Shown one piece after another: positions 3,869 to 58,082 of a stretch of DNA of 64,000 bases; the stretch's first letter is position 1; the number at the start of each line of letters is the position of its first letter. This stretch comes from Sinorhizobium meliloti 4H41. GTDB taxonomy: Bacteria; Pseudomonadota; Alphaproteobacteria; Rhizobiales; Rhizobiaceae. The DNA is taken from positions 248,001 through 312,000 of the forward strand of contig NZ_AQWP01000001.1 of assembly GCF_000375585.1 (NCBI RefSeq). Reading direction: 5' to 3'. The notes under the pieces are model-generated. The model searched no databases. It was not told the origin of the DNA and worked only from the letters and a program-made list of their open reading frames with translations. Both the position numbers and the translations under genes were made by a program.

Positions 3869-4763
3869 TGTGATGCCGGTAGACGTGGCGATCGTGGGTG
3901 GAAGCTATGCAGGGCTGTCGGCGGCATTGCAATTGGCCAGAGCCAGACGCTCCGTGGTCGTCGTCGATGCGGGCGCGCGCAGGAACCGCTTTGCCGAATC
4001 GTCGCATGGGTTCCTCAGCCGGGACGGCGAGGCGCCTGCGACGATCGCGGCGCACGGCCGGGAACAGTTGATGGCCTATCCCAATGTGCGTTTCGTCGAA
4101 GGAACGGCCGATACGGCGCGCCGCGACGGCGCCAATCTGGTCGTCTCGGTGCAGGGCGAAAAGATCGCGGCGCGGCGGCTGATCCTGGCAACGGGCGTCG
4201 TCGATGAGCTGCCGTCGATACCGGGGCTTCAGGAACGCTGGGGCCGCGCCGTCTTTCATTGCCCCTATTGCCATGGTTATGAGCTCGGGCAGGGCCGCAT
4301 CGGCGTTCTCGCAACCGGTGAGTCCAGTTTTCACCAGGCCATGATGCTGCCGGACTGGGGGCCGACCACCCTTTTCGCCAATGGAGCGTTCGAGCCCGAT
4401 GCCGCTCAGGCCGCCATGCTGGAAGCGCGCGGTGTGGAGATCGAAAGGGAGAGGGTCGTCGCCGTCGACGGAGCGAAGGCGAGCGTGGTTCTCGATGGCG
4501 GCCGGACCGTTTCTCTCGAAGGCCTGTTCGTCGCGTCGCGTACCCGCATGGCGAGCGATCTGCCTGCAGCGCTCGGCTGCGAATTCGAGGACGGGCCGCT
4601 CGGACCCTATATCCGGACGAACGAGGCAAAGGAGACGAGCGTCGAGCGCATCTATGCCTGTGGCGATGCCGCGCGGGGCGCGGGCTCGGTCTCGCATGCG
4701 GTCGGCGATGGCGTCACGGCAGCCGTGGCCGCGCATAAGTCACTGATTTTCGACGTACATTGA
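3858..4763 (+). CDS. NAD(P)/FAD-dependent oxidoreductase, thioredoxin reductase-like
   Basis: 301 aa, the usual size for small thioredoxin-reductase-type flavoproteins. FAD binding is indicated by VAIVGGSYAGLSAA (about 9-22) and by YACGDAARGAGSVSHAVGDG near the end. ATGVVDELPSIPG (about 111-123) is the mid-protein linker. A CPYC pair at about 135-138 could be the redox-active disulfide. The ATG at 3858 follows GAAGGAGCAGAACC inside the end of the Rrf2 gene. Its partner (thioredoxin-like protein or small disulfide) is not encoded nearby. Translational coupling to the Rrf2 regulator suggests a redox or electrophile response. Confidence 0.86.
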   Translation: MAVDVMPVDVAIVGGSYAGLSAALQLARARRSVVVVDAGARRNRFAESSHGFLSRDGEAPATIAAHGREQLMAYPNVRFVEGTADTARRDGANLVVSVQGEKIAARRLILATGVVDELPSIPGLQERWGRAVFHCPYCHGYELGQGRIGVLATGESSFHQAMMLPDWGPTTLFANGAFEPDAAQAAMLEARGVEIERERVVAVDGAKASVVLDGGRTVSLEGLFVASRTRMASDLPAALGCEFEDGPLGPYIRTNEAKETSVERIYACGDAARGAGSVSHAVGDGVTAAVAAHKSLIFDVH

Positions 4764-11500: not shown

Positions 11501-11998
11501 ACGAGGAAGTTTAAGGGTCATTCCAATCGGGGTGGCTTTGAGCTTTCCGTCGCCTGTGGCGGGGGTAATTCCACGTCGATCAATCAAACAAGTCGAGACG
11601 ATAAAACCGGGCGAGCCTTCGCACCGGAGCGAGGACGTTTCGTCTTATGGTTGCCGGCCGGGGCTTGGCCTTGTGAAGGCATGGGATAGGAAGAAGGAGG
11701 CTCGGGCTGTCCGCTACGTACGAGGGTGCGGTCAGCCGACAACGAGGAAAAACGGTTCTGGCCGGCTTGAAAATGGCCGTGCAGAATCGGTAAGGCGAAG
11801 TGCGGGGGGACATTTGCTTGAGGCGAAGGCGAGCGAATGAGCGCAGCGCGCCGTGACGGGATATGAGGAGCCCGGGTTCGGTGCGTATCAGAGCGTCCGG
11901 CTGACGCGGCATGGCTTTGAGCGGCCGTGGCGGGCGGACATAAAGATGAGGCCGCCAGCAATGACGGCGTCGGAATAATGAAATTGGAAGGCGGCAAG

Positions 11999-13522
11999 AT
12001 GCGGATGAATTTGGCGACGGCACCTGAAGGTTTTCAGGCCGGAAGCAATCAGTCTCAGGCGGCGGGGGAAAAACACGACATGCGGCATGACGCACTGTTT
12101 GAGCGGGTAAGTGCGCGCTTGAAAGCTCAGGTCGGACCGGATGTCTTCGCAAGTTGGTTTGGACGCCTCAAGCTCCATTCAGTGTCGAAAAGCGTCGTGC
12201 GCCTCTCGGTCCCTACGACTTTTCTGAAGTCCTGGATCAATAATCGCTATCTCGATCTGATCACCACGCTCGTCCAGCAGGAGGACGGCGAAATACTGAA
12301 GGTGGAGATCCTCGTGCGCACTGCGACCCGCGGTCATCGCCCGACGGCTCCTGAGGAGAGCGTTGCCGCGGTTGCCGAAGCGGCGCCCGTCTCTCCTTCC
12401 CGCCGTTCGGCGGCCCCCTCCGTGGCAATTGCCGCCGCCACGGTTGCGGCAGCTCCGGCGAGACCCGTCCAGGCGCCGCTTTTCGGCTCGCCTCTCGATC
12501 AGCGCTACGGTTTCGATAGTTTCGTAGAGGGCTCGTCGAACCGGGTCGCGCTCGCGGCAGCGCGTACGATTGCCGAGGCCGGCGCCGGCGCCGTGCGCTT
12601 CAATCCGCTCTTCATCCATTCGAGCGTTGGTCTCGGCAAGACGCATCTCCTGCAGGCGATCGCTCTCGCGGCCCTCCAGAGTGCGCGCGCGCCGCGCGTC
12701 GTCTATCTCACGGCCGAATATTTCATGTGGCGTTTCGCAACGGCGATCCGCGACAACGACGCGCTGTCGCTGAAGGAATCGCTTCGCAACATCGACCTTC
12801 TCATTATCGACGACATGCAGTTCCTGCAGGGCAAGTCGATCCAGCACGAGTTCTGCCATCTGTTGAACATGCTGCTCGACTCCGCCAAACAGGTGGTCGT
12901 CGCCGCCGACCGTGCACCCTGGGAGCTGGAATCGCTCGACAGCCGCGTTCGCTCGCGCCTGCAGGGCGGCGTGGCGATCGAGATGGAAGGGCCGGACTAC
13001 GAGATGCGCCTGGAAATGCTGAAGCGTCGTCTCGAAGCGGCGCGCCAGGACGATGCCTCGCTCGAGATTCCGCCCGAGATCCTGAGCCACGTCGCCCGCA
13101 ACGTGACAGCCAGCGGCCGCGAACTCGAGGGCGCCTTCAATCAGCTTCTCTTCCGTCGCTCCTTCGAGCCGCAGCTTTCGATCGAGCGGGTCGACGAACT
13201 GCTCGGCCATCTCGTCAATGCCGGGGAACCGCGCCGCGTCCGCATCGAAGATATCCAGCGCGTAGTGGCCAAGCACTACAACGTCTCGCGTCAGGAGCTG
13301 GTCTCGAACCGCCGCACCCGCGTCATCGTCAAGCCGCGCCAGATCGCCATGTATCTGTCGAAGACACTGACCCCACGCTCCTTCCCCGAAATCGGCCGCC
13401 GCTTCGGCGGGCGCGACCACACGACCGTGCTCCATGCGGTGCGCAAGATCGAGGAGCTGATTTCTGCCGACACCAAGCTCAGCCACGAGATCGAGCTTTT
13501 GAAGCGACTGATCAACGAATAG
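11999..13522 (+). CDS. dnaA: Chromosomal replication initiator DnaA
   Basis: 507 aa from the ATG at 11999, which has GGAAGGCGG eight bases upstream; in-frame starts at 11978 and 11927 are less well placed. Domain I is about 15-90 ([18 protein letters not shown]), a low-complexity Ala/Pro/Ser linker about 95-165, the AAA+ domain follows with Walker A VGLGKTH, Walker [11 protein letters not shown] and the arginine-rich [10 protein letters not shown]. The C-terminal DNA-binding domain has the DnaA signature [13 protein letters not shown]. It binds DnaA boxes and opens the origin, which lies elsewhere. A terminator follows directly. Confidence 0.97.
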
Positions 13523-13545: not shown

Positions 13546-13571
13546 AAAAGCCCGGTCCGCCGGGCTTTTTT
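13546..13571 (+). terminator. Rho-independent terminator of dnaA
   Basis: Ten-base-pair stem AAAAGCCCGG/CCGGGCTTTT with a four-base loop, running into TTTTTT. It separates dnaA from the sigma-factor module. Confidence 0.9.
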
Positions 13572-13595: not shown

Positions 13596-13622
13596 TGTCG
13601 GCTATCAATACCGCCATTCGTC
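13596..13622 (+). promoter_or_regulatory. Predicted ECF42 promoter TGTCGG-N15-TTCGTC (copy 1)
   Basis: TGTCGG at 13596-13601 and TTCGTC at 13617-13622, 15-bp spacer, 25 bp before the YCII gene. The same hexamers with the same spacing occur before the SRPBCC gene at 15301-15327. ECF promoters typically have a conserved -35 and a short CGTC-like -10. Confidence 0.65.
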
Positions 13623-13646
13623 TTCAGACCAGAGCGGAGATTTTCA

Positions 13647-14021
13647 ATGCTTTACGCCGTGCTTTGCTACAACGATGAAAGCGTCACCAGTGCCTGGAGC
13701 AAGGAGGAGGACGAGCGGGTCATGCGTGATCTGAGCGCCGTCCAACGCAAATATGTCGAAGCGGGCAAGCTGGGGCCCGTGGCGCGGCTGGTGCCGACGA
13801 CGGCGGCGGCGACGCTGCGCCACAGCGCCGGCGAGACGATCGTCATCGACGGCCCCTTCGCCGAGACCAAGGAACAGTTGCTCGGCTTCTATCTGATCGA
13901 TTGCGCCTCGCTGGACGAGGCGCTCGACTTCGCGCGCGATCTGAGTAACGCCAATCCGAGCACGGGCTCCTACGAAGTCCGGCCGCTCGCGCTTTATAAA
14001 CCCGGTGAGTTGCCCTCATGA
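13647..14021 (+). CDS. YCII/DGPF-domain protein of the ECF42 module
   Basis: 124 aa. The single domain shows DGPFAETKEQLLGFYLID (about 72-89), the motif that named the DGPF group of YCII-like proteins, which are the usual genomic partners of ECF42 sigma factors. The biochemical role of DGPF proteins is not known; the ferredoxin-like YCII fold suggests ligand binding or a small enzyme. Start: GCGGAGATTTTCA before the ATG. The stop overlaps the sigma-factor ATG (ATGA), so the two are translated together. Confidence 0.88.
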   Translation: MLYAVLCYNDESVTSAWSKEEDERVMRDLSAVQRKYVEAGKLGPVARLVPTTAAATLRHSAGETIVIDGPFAETKEQLLGFYLIDCASLDEALDFARDLSNANPSTGSYEVRPLALYKPGELPS

Positions 14022-15286
14022 CCGACACAGGCTGGATCGATCTTGCTCTTGTTTCCGCGCGGCCGCAGGCAATGGGTGCGCTGCTGCGCTACTTTCGCAA
14101 TCTCGATCTGGCGGAGGAGGCATTTCAGGAGGCCTGTATCCGGGCGCTGAAAAACTGGCCCCGTACCGGTCCGCCGCGCGATCCCGCCGCCTGGCTCATC
14201 TTCGTCGGACGCAATAGCGGCATCGACAGGGTGCGGCGGCAGTCGCGCGAGACGGCGCTGCCCCCGGAGGAACTGCTCTCCGACCTCGAAGACCGGGAGA
14301 GTGAACTCGCCGATCGCCTCGACGGGGCGCATTACCGCGACGACATCCTGCGGCTGCTCTTCGTCTGCAGCAATCCGACGCTTCCGGCAACCCAGCAGAT
14401 CGCGCTTGCACTGCGCATCGTATCGGGGCTCTCCGTCAGGCAGATCGCCCGTGCTTTTCTCGTCAGCGAAGCCGCGATGGAGCAGCGCATCACCCGCGCC
14501 AAGGCCCGCGTGGCGGCCGCCGGCATCCCGTTCGAGACACCCGATGCCGCCGATCGCGCCGAGCGGCTCGCTGCGGTCGCGACGATGATCTATCTCGTCT
14601 TCAACGAGGGTTATTCGGCGATGAACGGCGCCGAGGGCGTCTCCGCCGATCTTTGCGACGAGGCGATCCGCCTGTCGCGGCTGCTGCTGCGGCTGTTTCC
14701 CGCCGAGCCGGAAATCATGGGACTGACGGCACTTCTGCTGCTTCAGCATTCGCGCGCCCGCGCGCGCTTCGATGCAAACGGTGCCGTCGTCCTGCTCGAA
14801 GATCAGGATCGGCGGCTCTGGAGCCGGCCGATGATTACCGAGGCGCTGGCGATGATCGACAAGGCAATGCGCCATCGCCGCCCCGGGCCTTACCAGATAC
14901 AGGCAGCGATCGCCGCCCTGCACGCCCGCGCCGAACGTCCTGAGCAGACGGATTGGGAGGAGATCGACCTCCTCTACCAGGCGCTCGAGCGCCTGCAGCC
15001 CTCTCCGGTCGTCACGCTCAATCGCGCGGTCGCCGTCTCCAAACGGGAGGGAGCGGAGGCCGCACTGGCCATGGTGGAGCCCCTTGGCGAGAGGCTTTCC
15101 GGCTATTTCTATTATCATGGCCTGCGCGGCGGCCTTTTGAAGCAACTCGGCCGGGCATGCGAGGCGCGCGCCGCCTTCGACCGGGCGATCGCACTGGCCA
15201 CCAACGCGGCCGAAGCGGCCTATATCCGCATGCAGCTCGATCACCTCGCGGCCGAGCCGGCGACGGTCGCGGAAGAAGAGCGATAA
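14018..15286 (+). CDS. ECF42-type RNA polymerase sigma factor with C-terminal TPR-like extension
   Basis: 422 aa, about twice the size of a minimal ECF sigma factor. Sigma region 2 is about 16-85 (LDLAEEAFQEACIRALKNWP, then WLIFVGRNSGIDRVRR) and region 4 about 125-175 (ALRIVSGLSVRQIARAFLVSEAAMEQRITRAK). From about 190 on is the helical extension characteristic of ECF42, with TPR-like helices (LYQALERLQPSPVVTLNRAVA; RAAFDRAIALATN). No anti-sigma gene is present; in ECF42 the C-terminal domain is thought to control activity in its place. It is likely to drive both this operon and the SRPBCC gene through the matched promoters. Confidence 0.9.
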   Translation: MTDTGWIDLALVSARPQAMGALLRYFRNLDLAEEAFQEACIRALKNWPRTGPPRDPAAWLIFVGRNSGIDRVRRQSRETALPPEELLSDLEDRESELADRLDGAHYRDDILRLLFVCSNPTLPATQQIALALRIVSGLSVRQIARAFLVSEAAMEQRITRAKARVAAAGIPFETPDAADRAERLAAVATMIYLVFNEGYSAMNGAEGVSADLCDEAIRLSRLLLRLFPAEPEIMGLTALLLLQHSRARARFDANGAVVLLEDQDRRLWSRPMITEALAMIDKAMRHRRPGPYQIQAAIAALHARAERPEQTDWEEIDLLYQALERLQPSPVVTLNRAVAVSKREGAEAALAMVEPLGERLSGYFYYHGLRGGLLKQLGRACEARAAFDRAIALATNAAEAAYIRMQLDHLAAEPATVAEEER

Positions 15287-15300
15287 TTTTTTCTGACCCC

Positions 15301-15327
15301 TGTCGGCAGGCGGCATCCTCTTTCGTC
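15301..15327 (+). promoter_or_regulatory. Predicted ECF42 promoter TGTCGG-N15-TTCGTC (copy 2)
   Basis: TGTCGG at 15301-15306 and TTCGTC at 15322-15327, 15-bp spacer, 33 bp before the SRPBCC gene start. Identical hexamers and spacing to copy 1, while the spacer bases differ, which argues for selection on the hexamers. Confidence 0.65.
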
Positions 15328-15359
15328 CTTGGAATGAACCAACATGGAGGAATTCGAAA

Positions 15360-15842
15360 ATGACTGCAGCGACCGACACCAATTCCGGCGGCGAACGCGA
15401 ACTGGTTCTGACCCGGCTGATCGATGCCCCGCGCGAGAAGGTCTACCGGGCCTTCACGGAAGCCGGGCTTCTGAAGCAGTGGTTCGCCCCTCTGCCGTGG
15501 ACGATCACGGAAGCGGAGCTCGACGTCAGGGCGGGCGGCATCAACCGCTTTGTCATGCGCTCGCCCGAGGGCGAACTCTATCCCAATCAGGGCGTCTATC
15601 TCGAAGTCGTGCCGAACGAGAAGATCGTCGTCACCGATGCCTTTACGGAAGCCTGGAAGCCGTCCGAGAAGCCGTTCATGACGGCGGTCATGACCTTCGA
15701 GAACGAGGGCGGCAAGACCCGCTATACGGCCCGCGCGCTCCATTGGAGCGTCGAGGACCGCGATGCCCATGAGAAGATGGGCTTTCACGAGGGCTGGGGC
15801 CAATGCGCCGATCAGCTTGCAGCACTCGTTGCGAAACTCTGA
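15360..15842 (+). CDS. SRPBCC (AHSA1/START-like) domain protein
   Basis: 160 aa. It shows the activator-of-Hsp90-homologue-1 layout: LVLTRLIDAPREKVYRAFTEAGLLKQWFAP at the N-terminus, an antiparallel sheet and the C-terminal long helix (HEGWGQCADQLAALVAK) that closes the hydrophobic cavity. These proteins bind small hydrophobic ligands; the ligand is unknown. The ATG follows GGAGGAATTCGAAA. It has its own copy of the sigma-factor promoter motif and stands 15 bp before the SnoaL-VOC gene, so both are probably in the ECF42 regulon. Confidence 0.88.
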   Translation: MTAATDTNSGGERELVLTRLIDAPREKVYRAFTEAGLLKQWFAPLPWTITEAELDVRAGGINRFVMRSPEGELYPNQGVYLEVVPNEKIVVTDAFTEAWKPSEKPFMTAVMTFENEGGKTRYTARALHWSVEDRDAHEKMGFHEGWGQCADQLAALVAKL

Positions 15843-15857
15843 GAGGAGGACGGGGTC

Positions 15858-16724
15858 ATGACCATTACCGCGAGCAGCAATGCGGCCATTGCGGAGATCG
15901 AGGAGGTAATCGGAGGCTGGGCGGAGGCGCTGCGCCGGAAGGATGCCGCCCGCGTCCTCGCCCACGGCACGGACGATTGCCTCGTCTTTTCCCTGGCGCC
16001 GCCCCTCAAGGCCTCCGACGCAGATGCCGGCGGCCTCGAGCAGTGGTTCTCCACGTGGAAAGGACCGCTCGGCTTCACCCTTGAGGATCTCGACGTTTCG
16101 GTGAGCGGCGACGTCGCCTTCGCCACTGCGCTGACGCATCTTTCCGGCGAGAAGCACGATGGTCAGAAGGCGGCGCTCTGGTATCGCCTGACCTTGGGCC
16201 TGACGCGCACCGACAGGGGATGGAAGATTGCCCATCAGCACGAATCCGTTCCCTTCTACATGGACGGGAGCTTCAAGGCGGCGATCGATCTCGATCCTCG
16301 ATCCGAGGTCGACTGGCAAGCACCGTCGCGCCCGCCCATGCCCGGTGTCATCGCCTATCTCAACGTGGAGGATGCAGATGCGGCGGCGGCCTTCTACGTC
16401 CGCGCTTTCGGCGCCAAGGAGGAGGACCGCAAACTTGCCCAGGACGGAAAGCGCCTCATCCACTGCCACCTGACGATCAACGGCGGCGCATTGATGCTGA
16501 ACGATCCCTTCCCGGAATTCGGCCATCCCTGGAAGCCGCCGGAGGGCTTCGTGCTGCACCTCGTCGTCGACGACGCGGATTTCTGGTGGAAACGGGCGGT
16601 GGAGGCCGGCGCGCAGGTGACGATGCCGCTGGAGATCGCCTTCTGGGGCGATCATTACGGCCAGCTCAAAGATCCCTTCGGGGTTACCTGGGGGATCGTC
16701 GCACCGGTGAAGGAAGGCGGTTGA
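15858..16724 (+). CDS. Fusion of a SnoaL-like domain and a VOC (PhnB-type) domain
   Basis: 288 aa. Residues about 1-130 are a SnoaL/DUF4440-like cone fold (EVIGGWAEALRRKDAARVLAHGTDDCLVF; LGLTRTDRGWKIAHQHES). Residues about 160-285 are a vicinal-oxygen-chelate domain of the PhnB type (PGVIAYLNVEDADAAAAFYVRAFGA; GGALMLNDPF; FWGDHYGQLKDPFGVTWGI). No stop or frameshift separates them. Both folds bind small molecules, so the protein may modify or sequester a compound connected with the ECF42 response. GAGGAGGACGGG precedes the ATG. Convergent with hemW. Confidence 0.87.
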   Translation: MTITASSNAAIAEIEEVIGGWAEALRRKDAARVLAHGTDDCLVFSLAPPLKASDADAGGLEQWFSTWKGPLGFTLEDLDVSVSGDVAFATALTHLSGEKHDGQKAALWYRLTLGLTRTDRGWKIAHQHESVPFYMDGSFKAAIDLDPRSEVDWQAPSRPPMPGVIAYLNVEDADAAAAFYVRAFGAKEEDRKLAQDGKRLIHCHLTINGGALMLNDPFPEFGHPWKPPEGFVLHLVVDDADFWWKRAVEAGAQVTMPLEIAFWGDHYGQLKDPFGVTWGIVAPVKEGG

Positions 16725-16740: not shown

Positions 16741-17922
16741 TCAGCAGGCGAGGTCGGCCACCACGGCGTCGAGGATCAGCATTCCGGCGGGCGTGCAGCG
16801 CAGCCGCGAATTGCCGATCCGTTCGATGAAACCATGCTCGATCAGGAACTCTTCCCGGGCCGGATCCGGATCGCGGCCCGAGAGGGTCTGCCAGCGGGCG
16901 AGATCGACGCCTTCGCGCAGCCTCAACCCCATCAGCAAAAGCTCATCGGCCTGCGCCTCGAAATCAAGCAGTTCCCGCTCGATCAGGCCTTCGCCGCACT
17001 CTTCGACGCGTTGCAGCCATGCCTCGGGGTTGCGCTCGGTTGCGGTCGCGATCTTGCCTGATCCGATCGCCAGCCGCCCATGGGCGCCGGGGCCGATGCC
17101 CGCATAGTCGCCGTAGCGCCAATAGGTGAGGTTGTGCCGGCTCTCGGCCCCCGGCCGGGCATGGTTGGAGACCTCATAGGCCGGCATGCCGATCGCCGCG
17201 GTGATCTCCTGCGTGGCCTCGTAGAGAACAGCCGACTGCTCGCCATCCGGAACGACGAGCTTGCCTGCCTTGTGCAGGCCGTAGAAGGGCGTCCCTTCCT
17301 CGATGGTAAGCTGGTAGAGCGACAGATGATCGACGGCGTAGGAAACCGCCTCCTTCAGTTCGCGCTCCCATTCCTCGACCGTCTGGTTCGGCCGCGCATA
17401 GATCAGGTCGAAGGACATCCGCGGAAAGATCTCGCGGGCGAGCCGCACGGCCTTCAACGCATTCTCGACATCGTGCAGCCGTCCGAGAAATTTGAGGTCA
17501 CGGTCGTTGAGAGCCTGGACGCCGAGCGAGACGCGGTTGACGCCGGCCGCCCTGTAGCCGCGGAAGCGCGTCGCCTCGACGCTGGAGGGGTTCGCCTCCA
17601 TGGTGATCTCGATGCCGTCAGGCACGTGCCAATGCCGGGCAATGCCGTCGAGGATCGCCTCCACCGTCTGAGGGTCCATCAGCGACGGGGTACCCCCGCC
17701 CATGAAAATGCTGGTGACGGTTCTCGGACCGGAAAGCGCGCGCACCGCCGCCATTTCCTTCAGGAATGCGGCGACGAAGCGAGGCTGATCCACCGGCTGG
17801 TGGCGCACATGGCTATTGAAGTCGCAATAGGGGCATTTCGCCGCGCAGAACGGCCAGTGCACATAGACCCCGAAACCGGGGTCCATGCCGTCACCGATCG
17901 CTGAAAGCGGGGCTATCTGCAT
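16741..17922 (-). CDS. hemW: Radical SAM protein HemW (coproporphyrinogen dehydrogenase-like, heme chaperone family)
   Basis: 393 aa. The radical-SAM CxxxCxxC cluster motif is at residues 26-33 (CAAKCPYC), GGGTPS follows about residue 78, and HNLTYWRYGDYAGIGPGAHGR (about 266-286) is typical of HemW. HemW lacks coproporphyrinogen oxidase activity and acts as a heme chaperone; the fourth Cys of true HemN (CxxxCxxCxC) is Phe-Asn here, which supports HemW. A shorter start at residue 13 is possible. Lies 11 bp after rdgB, the usual rhizobial arrangement. Confidence 0.93.
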   Translation of the reverse strand: MQIAPLSAIGDGMDPGFGVYVHWPFCAAKCPYCDFNSHVRHQPVDQPRFVAAFLKEMAAVRALSGPRTVTSIFMGGGTPSLMDPQTVEAILDGIARHWHVPDGIEITMEANPSSVEATRFRGYRAAGVNRVSLGVQALNDRDLKFLGRLHDVENALKAVRLAREIFPRMSFDLIYARPNQTVEEWERELKEAVSYAVDHLSLYQLTIEEGTPFYGLHKAGKLVVPDGEQSAVLYEATQEITAAIGMPAYEVSNHARPGAESRHNLTYWRYGDYAGIGPGAHGRLAIGSGKIATATERNPEAWLQRVEECGEGLIERELLDFEAQADELLLMGLRLREGVDLARWQTLSGRDPDPAREEFLIEHGFIERIGNSRLRCTPAGMLILDAVVADLAC

Positions 17923-18608: not shown

Positions 18609-19022
18609 TCAATCCTTGGCCCAGAGGCCCGCTTCCGCGCATTCCAGGCTGTTGCCGGCCGGATCGCGGAAATAGAAGGAGCGGGCGCCGTTCGGCCAGC
18701 GGACATCCGCCTCGATCGAAACTCCGGCTGCCTCCAGTTTCGCCTTCCAGGCATCGAGTGCCTCGGCGGCGACCCGGAAGCACATGTGCCCGTTGCCCTT
18801 CGTCCCGTGCGGAGGCACGGGAAGTGCGCCCGGTGCAGGCGGCTTCACCGTCTCCGCCGGGTTGAAGATCAACAACACGCCTTCGCCGCAGCGGAAGAAG
18901 ACATGGCGGCTACCGGCGCGCGTGATCCTTTCAAGGCCGAGGACCGTTCCGTAGAAGGCCTCGGCCTGGTCGAGATCGTCCGCGTAAAGCGCGGTTTCCA
19001 GAATGCCTTCGAATGTCGGCAC
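18609..19022 (-). CDS. VOC (glyoxalase/bleomycin-resistance) family protein
   Basis: 137 aa from a GTG at 19022, which has GAGAGGAACC upstream; an in-frame start 24 codons earlier would extend into a palindromic repeat. One VOC domain of two beta-alpha-beta-beta-beta modules: ILETALYADDLDQAEAFYGTVLGL at the start and GARSFYFRDPAGNSLECAEAGLW at the end. The His/Glu pattern (GNGHMCFRV; LECAE) leaves a metal site possible. Substrate unknown. It may be on the rdgB-hemW transcript, 30 bp upstream of rdgB. Confidence 0.85.
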   Translation of the reverse strand: MPTFEGILETALYADDLDQAEAFYGTVLGLERITRAGSRHVFFRCGEGVLLIFNPAETVKPPAPGALPVPPHGTKGNGHMCFRVAAEALDAWKAKLEAAGVSIEADVRWPNGARSFYFRDPAGNSLECAEAGLWAKD

Positions 19023-19046
19023 CGGACCGGTTCCTCTCAAGTGATC

Positions 19047-19092
19047 CAGAGCACTTCCGGAAAAGCCATGACGGCGTTCCGTCCGGAAGTGC
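19047..19092. repeat. Rhizobial palindromic intergenic repeat (copy 1)
   Basis: AGAGCACTTCCGGAAAAG at 19047 and TTCCGTCCGGAAGTGC ending at 19092 match the element at 50396-50503 read on the other strand. Arms GCACTTCCGG/CCGGAAGTGC form a dyad. It sits between the rph and VOC genes. Confidence 0.7.
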
Positions 19093-19144
19093 AAATTGTC
19101 GAAGCGTCAGATCATCTCACTGCTGCCGTGCAGCAGAGAGCAGT

Positions 19145-57662: not shown

Positions 57663-58082
57663 ATGATCGAGAATAAGAAGAAACCGAACCCGATCGACAT
57701 TCATGTCGGTAGCAGGATTCGCCTTCGTCGGACGATGCTTGGCATGAGCCAGGAGAAGCTCGGCGAGAGTCTGGGGATTACCTTCCAGCAGATTCAGAAG
57801 TACGAAAAAGGCACGAACCGCGTCGGCGCGAGCCGGCTGCAGAACATTTCGCAGATACTCAACGTGCCGGTGTCGTTCTTCTTCGAGGATGCTCCGGGCG
57901 ATGGCGGCGGCACCGGGCCGGGGATGGCCGAGGCGTCGAGCTCCAACTACGTCGTCGATTTCCTGTCCTCCTCGGAAGGGCTGCAGCTCAACCGCGCCTT
58001 CGTGAAAATTTCCGACCCGAAGGTCCGGCGCAAGCTGGTAGACCTCGTTAAAGCACTGGCCGCCGAGGCGGAGAGCGAATAG
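57663..58082 (+). CDS. phrR: XRE-family transcriptional regulator PhrR
   Basis: 139 aa from the ATG at 57663 (AGGAAGGCGAAT upstream). Helix-turn-helix of the Cro/CI type about residues 12-70: HVGSRIRLRRTMLGMSQEKLGESLGITFQQIQKYEKGTNRV. The C-terminal part (about 80-139) has VDFLSSSEGLQLNRAFVKISDPKVRRKLVDLVKALA, shared with rhizobial PhrR/PraR regulators. phrR of S. medicae WSM419 was described as induced by low pH, copper, zinc and ethanol, downstream of actA, which is the arrangement seen here. Confidence 0.85.
   Translation: MIENKKKPNPIDIHVGSRIRLRRTMLGMSQEKLGESLGITFQQIQKYEKGTNRVGASRLQNISQILNVPVSFFFEDAPGDGGGTGPGMAEASSSNYVVDFLSSSEGLQLNRAFVKISDPKVRRKLVDLVKALAAEAESE

Follow-up and report, generated by a model that had tools for sequence, protein, structure and literature searches.

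ECF42 sigma factors, a class of the extracytoplasmic function (ECF) sigma factors, are widely distributed, to judge by the titles of cited work on the class. In the ECF42 members that have been studied, the C-terminal extension is essential, and switching is predicted to occur through interaction with another protein, with the YCII protein as the suspected partner (PMC8999054, accessible part). The closest described locus is that of RpoE10 in Sinorhizobium meliloti which, in the accessible part of PMC6180224 from which this paper is cited throughout, consists of SMc01151 (YCII-related), SMc01150 (rpoE10, ECF42), SMc01149 (hydrophobic-ligand domain) and SMc01148 (glyoxalase-like). Overexpression of RpoE10 raised the expression of SMc01149-48 and SMb20475-74 two-fold or more. 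Here, we analyzed a stretch of 64,000 nucleotides (nts) of S. meliloti 4H41 (contig NZ_AQWP01000001.1, positions 248,001 to 312,000 of the forward strand), hereafter the window, in which four genes with two promoter motifs at positions 13596 to 16724 form such a locus. The locus itself is ordinary and already described; the new part is a predicted regulon, dispersed and conserved. The best explanation of the data, which we consider likely, is that the sigma factor drives its own operon, the neighbouring operon and about nine unlinked genes or operons as a response to small toxic compounds.

The window departs from the 39-base stretches printed for the S. meliloti promoters P1 and P2 (PMC6180224, Table 1) at two positions and one position, respectively, and the genes are of the same kinds, hence the window carries the orthologue of the described RpoE10 locus. 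By gene order and promoters, the four genes, all on the forward strand, are those of the SMc01151-rpoE10-SMc01149-SMc01148 locus. The YCII/DGPF-domain protein (13647..14021, 124 amino acids, Pfam YCII 3e-21), the ECF42 sigma factor (14018..15286, 422 amino acids, assigned by Pfam) and the AHSA1/SRPBCC protein (15360..15842, 160 amino acids, Pfam AHSA1 7e-37) correspond by position and promoter to SMc01151, RpoE10 and SMc01149, and the SnoaL_3-VOC (glyoxalase) fusion (15858..16724, 288 amino acids, Pfam SnoaL_3 2e-25 and Glyoxalase 4e-17) corresponds by position to SMc01148. A first-pass annotation of the window had proposed these four kinds of genes, which Pfam bears out (YCII, ECF42 sigma, AHSA1/SRPBCC, SnoaL_3 and Glyoxalase), together with an ATGA overlap between the YCII and sigma genes, which is real and, with its length of 4 nts, recurs in 75 of the 80 best among 516 related loci. 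It had also placed the motif TGTCGG-N15-TTCGTC before the first and the third gene. Both copies are exact, P1 at 13596..13622 (followed by TT) and P2 at 15301..15327 (followed by CT), on the forward strand, with gaps to the start codons of 24 and 32 nts, against the 25 and 33 given earlier. The second motif precedes an operon which is RpoE10-dependent in S. meliloti (PMC6180224), and the site of the other RpoE10-dependent S. meliloti operon, before the SMb20475 orthologue (a PhnB-like VOC protein), is present in the genome as well. A transcription start had been predicted within 10 bp after each TTCGTC; by our reading of Table 1 of PMC6180224, the mapped S. meliloti start lies 9 nts after the motif for P2, at window position 15336, and within the motif for P1. 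The view of the locus as an undescribed system has to be abandoned, as PMC6180224 already describes the locus, gives its class and prints both promoters.

In the window, TGTCGG-N14..17-TTCGTC matches three times where shuffles expect 0.04 matches, and P1 and P2 are the sole exact sites of the form TGTCGG-N17-CGTC. The third match, at 57704 with N14, is positioned within a helix-turn-helix-like coding frame and was taken as chance.

Throughout the 6.79-Mb genome, TGTCGG-N17-CGTC occurs at 23 sites, many of which lie within coding frames. Adding YT, two further bases common to P1 and P2, reduces these to 11 extended sites, 10 of which have, within the next 110 nts, a Shine-Dalgarno-like sequence and a reading frame whose codon use is of the coding type. 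Among 40 spacing controls, taken from the matches listed (20 of 22 N16 sites and 20 of 21 N18 sites), YT was present in four and the gene test was passed by five, with no control combining both. YT and gene thus coincide at 10 of the 23 N17 sites vs 0 of the 40 controls (Fisher p about 9e-6), and when YT is disregarded the gene test is passed by 11 of 23 sites vs 5 of 40 controls (Fisher p = 0.003). The non-random spread expected by the first-pass annotation is therefore found once YT and position are counted. The signal resides in these two features, not in the number of motifs: the 10-base motif alone shows no enrichment over other spacings (298 sites for N15 to N19, 23 of them with N17), and a search allowing one mismatch was uninformative (66 sites, the 11 exact ones included, vs 84 in the reversed control). 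The 12 sites of the 23 which lack YT were set aside, including C1:750332, which the automatic gene test had accepted but which was rejected as lying within a coding frame. Since the YT extension, although derived from P1 and P2, was adopted when other sites had already been inspected, the set of 11 sites is in part post hoc, and the tests in the genus and in other genomes, given below, are the independent check on it.

Besides P1 and P2, the extended sites stand before genes which Pfam assigns to a PhnB-like VOC protein, the SMb20475 orthologue (C13:63274), two further VOC proteins (C2:585986 and C2:18613), a DUF1428 protein (C2:789022), an alpha/beta-hydrolase (C2:421680), a RibD_C protein (C2:435994), two glutathione transferases (GST; C4:331119 and C13:18263) and, the weakest case, an MFS protein (C10:147682). 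These nine exact sites elsewhere in the genome, one of which is an already published target (PMC6180224), contradict the earlier description of the module as self-contained with a local regulon. At the MFS site (L114, G000:C10:147682-147710), the spacer is itself an inverted repeat (GGCGCC...GGCGCC), and motif and repeat recur, exact, in pSymB of S. meliloti RU11/001 (L308).

Conservation of the distant promoters within the genus was examined for two targets, RibD_C and DUF1428, with the 4H41 genome included in the counts. RibD_C orthologues are found in 26 of 28 genus genomes, one locus at a contig end not being placed and a 27th, paralogous locus (L249) being excluded; the motif is exact before 22 of the 25 placed genes and has one mismatch before the other three, and at three of the 25 loci the site lies 130-140 nts ahead of the assumed start. 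DUF1428 orthologues are found in 27 of the 28 genomes, all placed, with the motif exact before 25 and with one mismatch before two. Control stretches 500-670 nts upstream of the RibD_C and DUF1428 genes contain only matches with 3-5 mismatches. Five further genus genomes contain 49 sites, and 23 of the 30 which were read precede orthologues of the 4H41 targets, as judged by first residues. In S. meliloti 1021, an exact site also stands before the GST orthologue on pSymB. Outside these targets, a 98-amino-acid protein without assigned family is preceded by an exact site in two Sinorhizobium genomes (L284:1553-1846, forward strand, and L291:1180-1473, reverse strand).

The order-wide sample comprised 81 genomes, 36 of which have an ECF42 protein over the cut-off. 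Exact extended sites number 111 in the 173.8 Mb of ECF42-bearing genomes vs 46 in the 152.1 Mb of ECF42-lacking genomes, pooled densities of 0.64 vs 0.30 per Mb (binomial p = 7e-6, or 5e-5 with the 4H41 genome left out), and the reversed-pattern control gave 38 and 36, respectively. The genes behind the sites were read in the three richest ECF42 genomes besides 4H41, namely G069 (14 of 14 sites), G023 (11 of 11) and G035 (6 of 13), with gene finding at other-genome sites slightly looser than in 4H41. Eighteen of these 31 sites (6, 7 and 5) precede families found in the 4H41 set, counted as YCII, AHSA1/SRPBCC, VOC/Glyoxalase, 3-dmu-9_3-mt, SnoaL, DUF1428, RibD_C and GST, and 13 of the 18 are located on another contig than an ECF42 gene or more than 100 kb from one. 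DUF899, DoxX and GFA genes account for three more of the 31. In seven ECF42-lacking genomes, none of the 19 sites read (out of 46) precedes such a family (Fisher p about 1e-5), the frames being judged by eye except for L204 (rpoB by Pfam) and L207 (no Pfam family); three of the 19 fall in the same rpoB stretch.

Several observations weigh against a dispersed RpoE10 regulon. The MFS site C10:147682 has no Shine-Dalgarno start in range and could be due to chance. When each genome counts as one data point, ECF42-bearing genomes are not significantly richer in sites (Mann-Whitney p = 0.076), and 18 of these 36 genomes have 0 or 1 site, hence small regulons, or the use of other variants, may be common among ECF42 proteins. 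Of the 31 sites examined in the other ECF42 genomes, 10 lack a gene of related kind behind them, and seven of the 30 sites read in the five further Sinorhizobium genomes precede no orthologue of a 4H41 target. Two of the seven, L284 and L291, are those before the 98-amino-acid protein, and the other five, L296, L299, L300, L301 and L304, look like chance. The pSymB GST gene is not named as an RpoE10 target in the accessible part of PMC6180224, where the S. meliloti array, after 30 min of overexpression, counted only six genes for RpoE10. The same part of that paper reports subtle phenotypes only for a strain deleted for all ECF sigma factors, whose sensitivities to domiphen bromide, benzethonium chloride and iodonitrotetrazolium violet are not assignable to RpoE10. 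Finally, SMc01151 was unchanged upon RpoE10 overexpression and its 5′ end overlaps the motif (PMC6180224).

This last point is also the basis of the alternative which survives best, in which RpoE10 does not act at P1, transcription of the YCII-rpoE10 operon depends on a different sigma factor and the motif serves another purpose. The conservation of P1 makes this doubtful, as TGTCGG and CGTC are kept before the YCII start in 70 of the 80 related loci (in the stretch searched), across several genera and with a variable spacer, at 20-27 nts before the start of the YCII match. The remaining ten loci comprise four with TGTCGA, three with GGTCGG, one with CGTT in place of CGTC, one masked and one (L100) with no site; L062 was scored as a miss owing to masked bases near the start, and its site at 4528 was seen separately. 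At L047, L048, L049 and L053, P1 has TGTCGA and P2 still has TGTCGG. The positive autoregulation anticipated by the first-pass annotation is favoured by the conserved P1 motif and disfavoured by the lack of a rise of SMc01151 and by the position of its 5′ end, and the motif of the operon, present as printed for S. meliloti, is best called a candidate promoter.

P2 was found in 47 of the 80 loci and is exact, within 300 nts after the sigma gene, in all 27 loci L031-L057, whose titles name Sinorhizobium or Ensifer in 26 cases and a “Rhizobiales bacterium” in one. The four-gene set is kept in 22 of these 27 loci and in none of the other 53. The five loci without the SRPBCC/SnoaL-VOC pair (L050 and L054-L057, Ensifer) keep P2, which in the one that was read out, Ensifer adhaerens L055, is followed by DoxX_2, DUF1801 and GST genes. 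In L031-L057, the module lies beside dnaA in 26 of 27 loci and beside hemN in 26 of 27, the two misses being short loci, and neither gene was found in the available stretches of the other 53. In the window, the locus is likewise flanked by dnaA and hemN (11927-13522 and 16741-17922), and an intrinsic-terminator-like hairpin with a T run, 3′ of dnaA (13546..13569, forward strand; direct sequence reading with no terminator-tool score), separates dnaA from P1. A further VOC (Glyoxalase) protein is encoded at 18609-19094 on the reverse strand, between Ham1-family and RNase PH genes; it has no motif of its own, since P1 and P2 are the only exact sites of the window.

Alternatively, the distant sites might be used by a sigma factor whose specificity overlaps that of RpoE10, such as the ECF41 protein RpoE9, whose printed S. 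meliloti promoter, TGTCAC, shares TGTC, the spacing and CGTC (PMC6180224, Table 1). This is improbable, because every new site has TGTCGG, as the RpoE10-dependent promoters do, and because none of the 19 sites in ECF42-lacking genomes, where the presence of RpoE9 was not scored, precedes the families in question. Least probable is a purely local module, in which the sigma factor serves no operons but its own and the adjacent one and all other matches are chance: two sites are local and conserved, and in S. meliloti no genes other than SMc01149-48 and SMb20475-74 reached a two-fold rise, but SMb20475 is itself a distant published target (PMC6180224), genes stand behind 10 of the 11 extended sites with none of the 40 controls combining YT and gene, and the genus keeps the distant promoters of RibD_C and DUF1428, against 3-5 mismatches at best in the stretches further upstream.

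The sigma factor matches Sigma70_r2 and Sigma70_r4_2 over the cut-off, and DUF6596, with no other sigma region listed by Pfam, and it has the only DUF6596/ECF42 match in the whole genome. Its nearest named relative, among the best 80 of 516 loci, is 98% identical and belongs to Ensifer sp. USDA 6670. The Pfam match to TPR is weak and below the cut-off. An AlphaFold model with a mean predicted local distance difference test score (pLDDT) of 71, and above 75 for most of the C-terminal half, is nearly all-helical after sigma4, residues 210-410 or so being mostly helices with a pLDDT of 69-95 per ten-residue block. With this model, Foldseek retrieved TPR proteins, and ECF sigma factors for the N-terminal part, with moderate TM-scores. 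DUF6596, the model and Foldseek together indicate the TPR-like C-terminal extension of about 200 residues that characterizes ECF42. The earlier assignment to this class was right, given sigma2/sigma4, DUF6596 and the YCII neighbour, and the TPR-like C-terminus it had proposed agrees with the predicted structure. As it had also stated, no recognisable anti-sigma gene is found among the four genes, according to Pfam and NCBIfam matches of the other three proteins, without transmembrane-segment prediction. A YCII gene lies upstream of the sigma gene in all 80 related loci, with the DGPF string in 79, and this constant coupling fits the YCII protein as the partner of the sigma factor.

In the mechanism that we propose, the ECF42 sigma factor, carrying its own TPR-like control domain at the C-terminus, would be produced together with the YCII protein, and the two would jointly form the sensor. 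The active sigma factor would guide RNA polymerase to TGTCGG-N17-CGTC-YT promoters, those of its own operon, of the adjacent SRPBCC/SnoaL-VOC operon and of about nine unlinked genes or operons encoding VOC, glutathione-transferase, RibD_C-reductase, DUF1428, alpha/beta-hydrolase and MFS proteins. RpoE10 control of the new sites is predicted from sequence, and a response to toxic compounds is proposed because proteins of the target families act on small molecules by binding or modifying them; the set may thus serve in detoxification by binding, modifying or exporting such compounds. For Hyphomicrobiales in general, the chances appear about even that ECF42 sigma factors command a scattered, evolving regulon of xenobiotic-handling proteins (VOC, SRPBCC, GST, RibD_C, DUF1428, DoxX, DUF899 and GFA), of about 10 operons in larger genomes, through a soluble YCII-TPR switch, and in which promoters can stay while the gene behind them is swapped, as with P2 of Ensifer adhaerens L055. 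Unlinked and conserved targets of one functional flavour make a role of ECF42 in the response to toxic small molecules testable, and their promoters can be used as reporters for inducer screening. The sites also suggest that the overexpression array caught only part of the regulon. A wider RpoE10/ECF42 regulon was not found described in the accessible literature searched, and subscription papers may describe it.

The ECF42 regulon of Streptomyces venezuelae reportedly consists mainly of DGPF genes. The S. venezuelae proteins (Sven_0747 and others; Liu et al. 2018, via PMC8999054, accessible part) are similar to the sigma factor studied here in their TPR-rich C-terminal extension and their YCII-domain neighbour. 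Pseudomonas putida ECF-10 is of the same class with a similar gene context and is linked to antibiotic and oxidative stress and to biofilm (Tettmann et al. 2014, via PMC6180224). ECF41, represented in S. meliloti by RpoE9, also combines a C-terminal regulatory extension with the lack of a separate anti-sigma factor; in contrast, its extension is of the SnoaL type, its target is a carboxymuconolactone decarboxylase and its promoter has TGTCAC (PMC6180224). The closest system remains the S. meliloti RpoE10 locus, which shares the order and kinds of genes, near-identical P1 and P2, and the SMb20475 orthologue with its promoter. Whereas six genes and no self-activation were reported for it in the accessible part of PMC6180224, the genome studied here carries eight exact sites beyond P1, P2 and that of SMb20475, and genus-wide conservation was tested and found for two of these eight.

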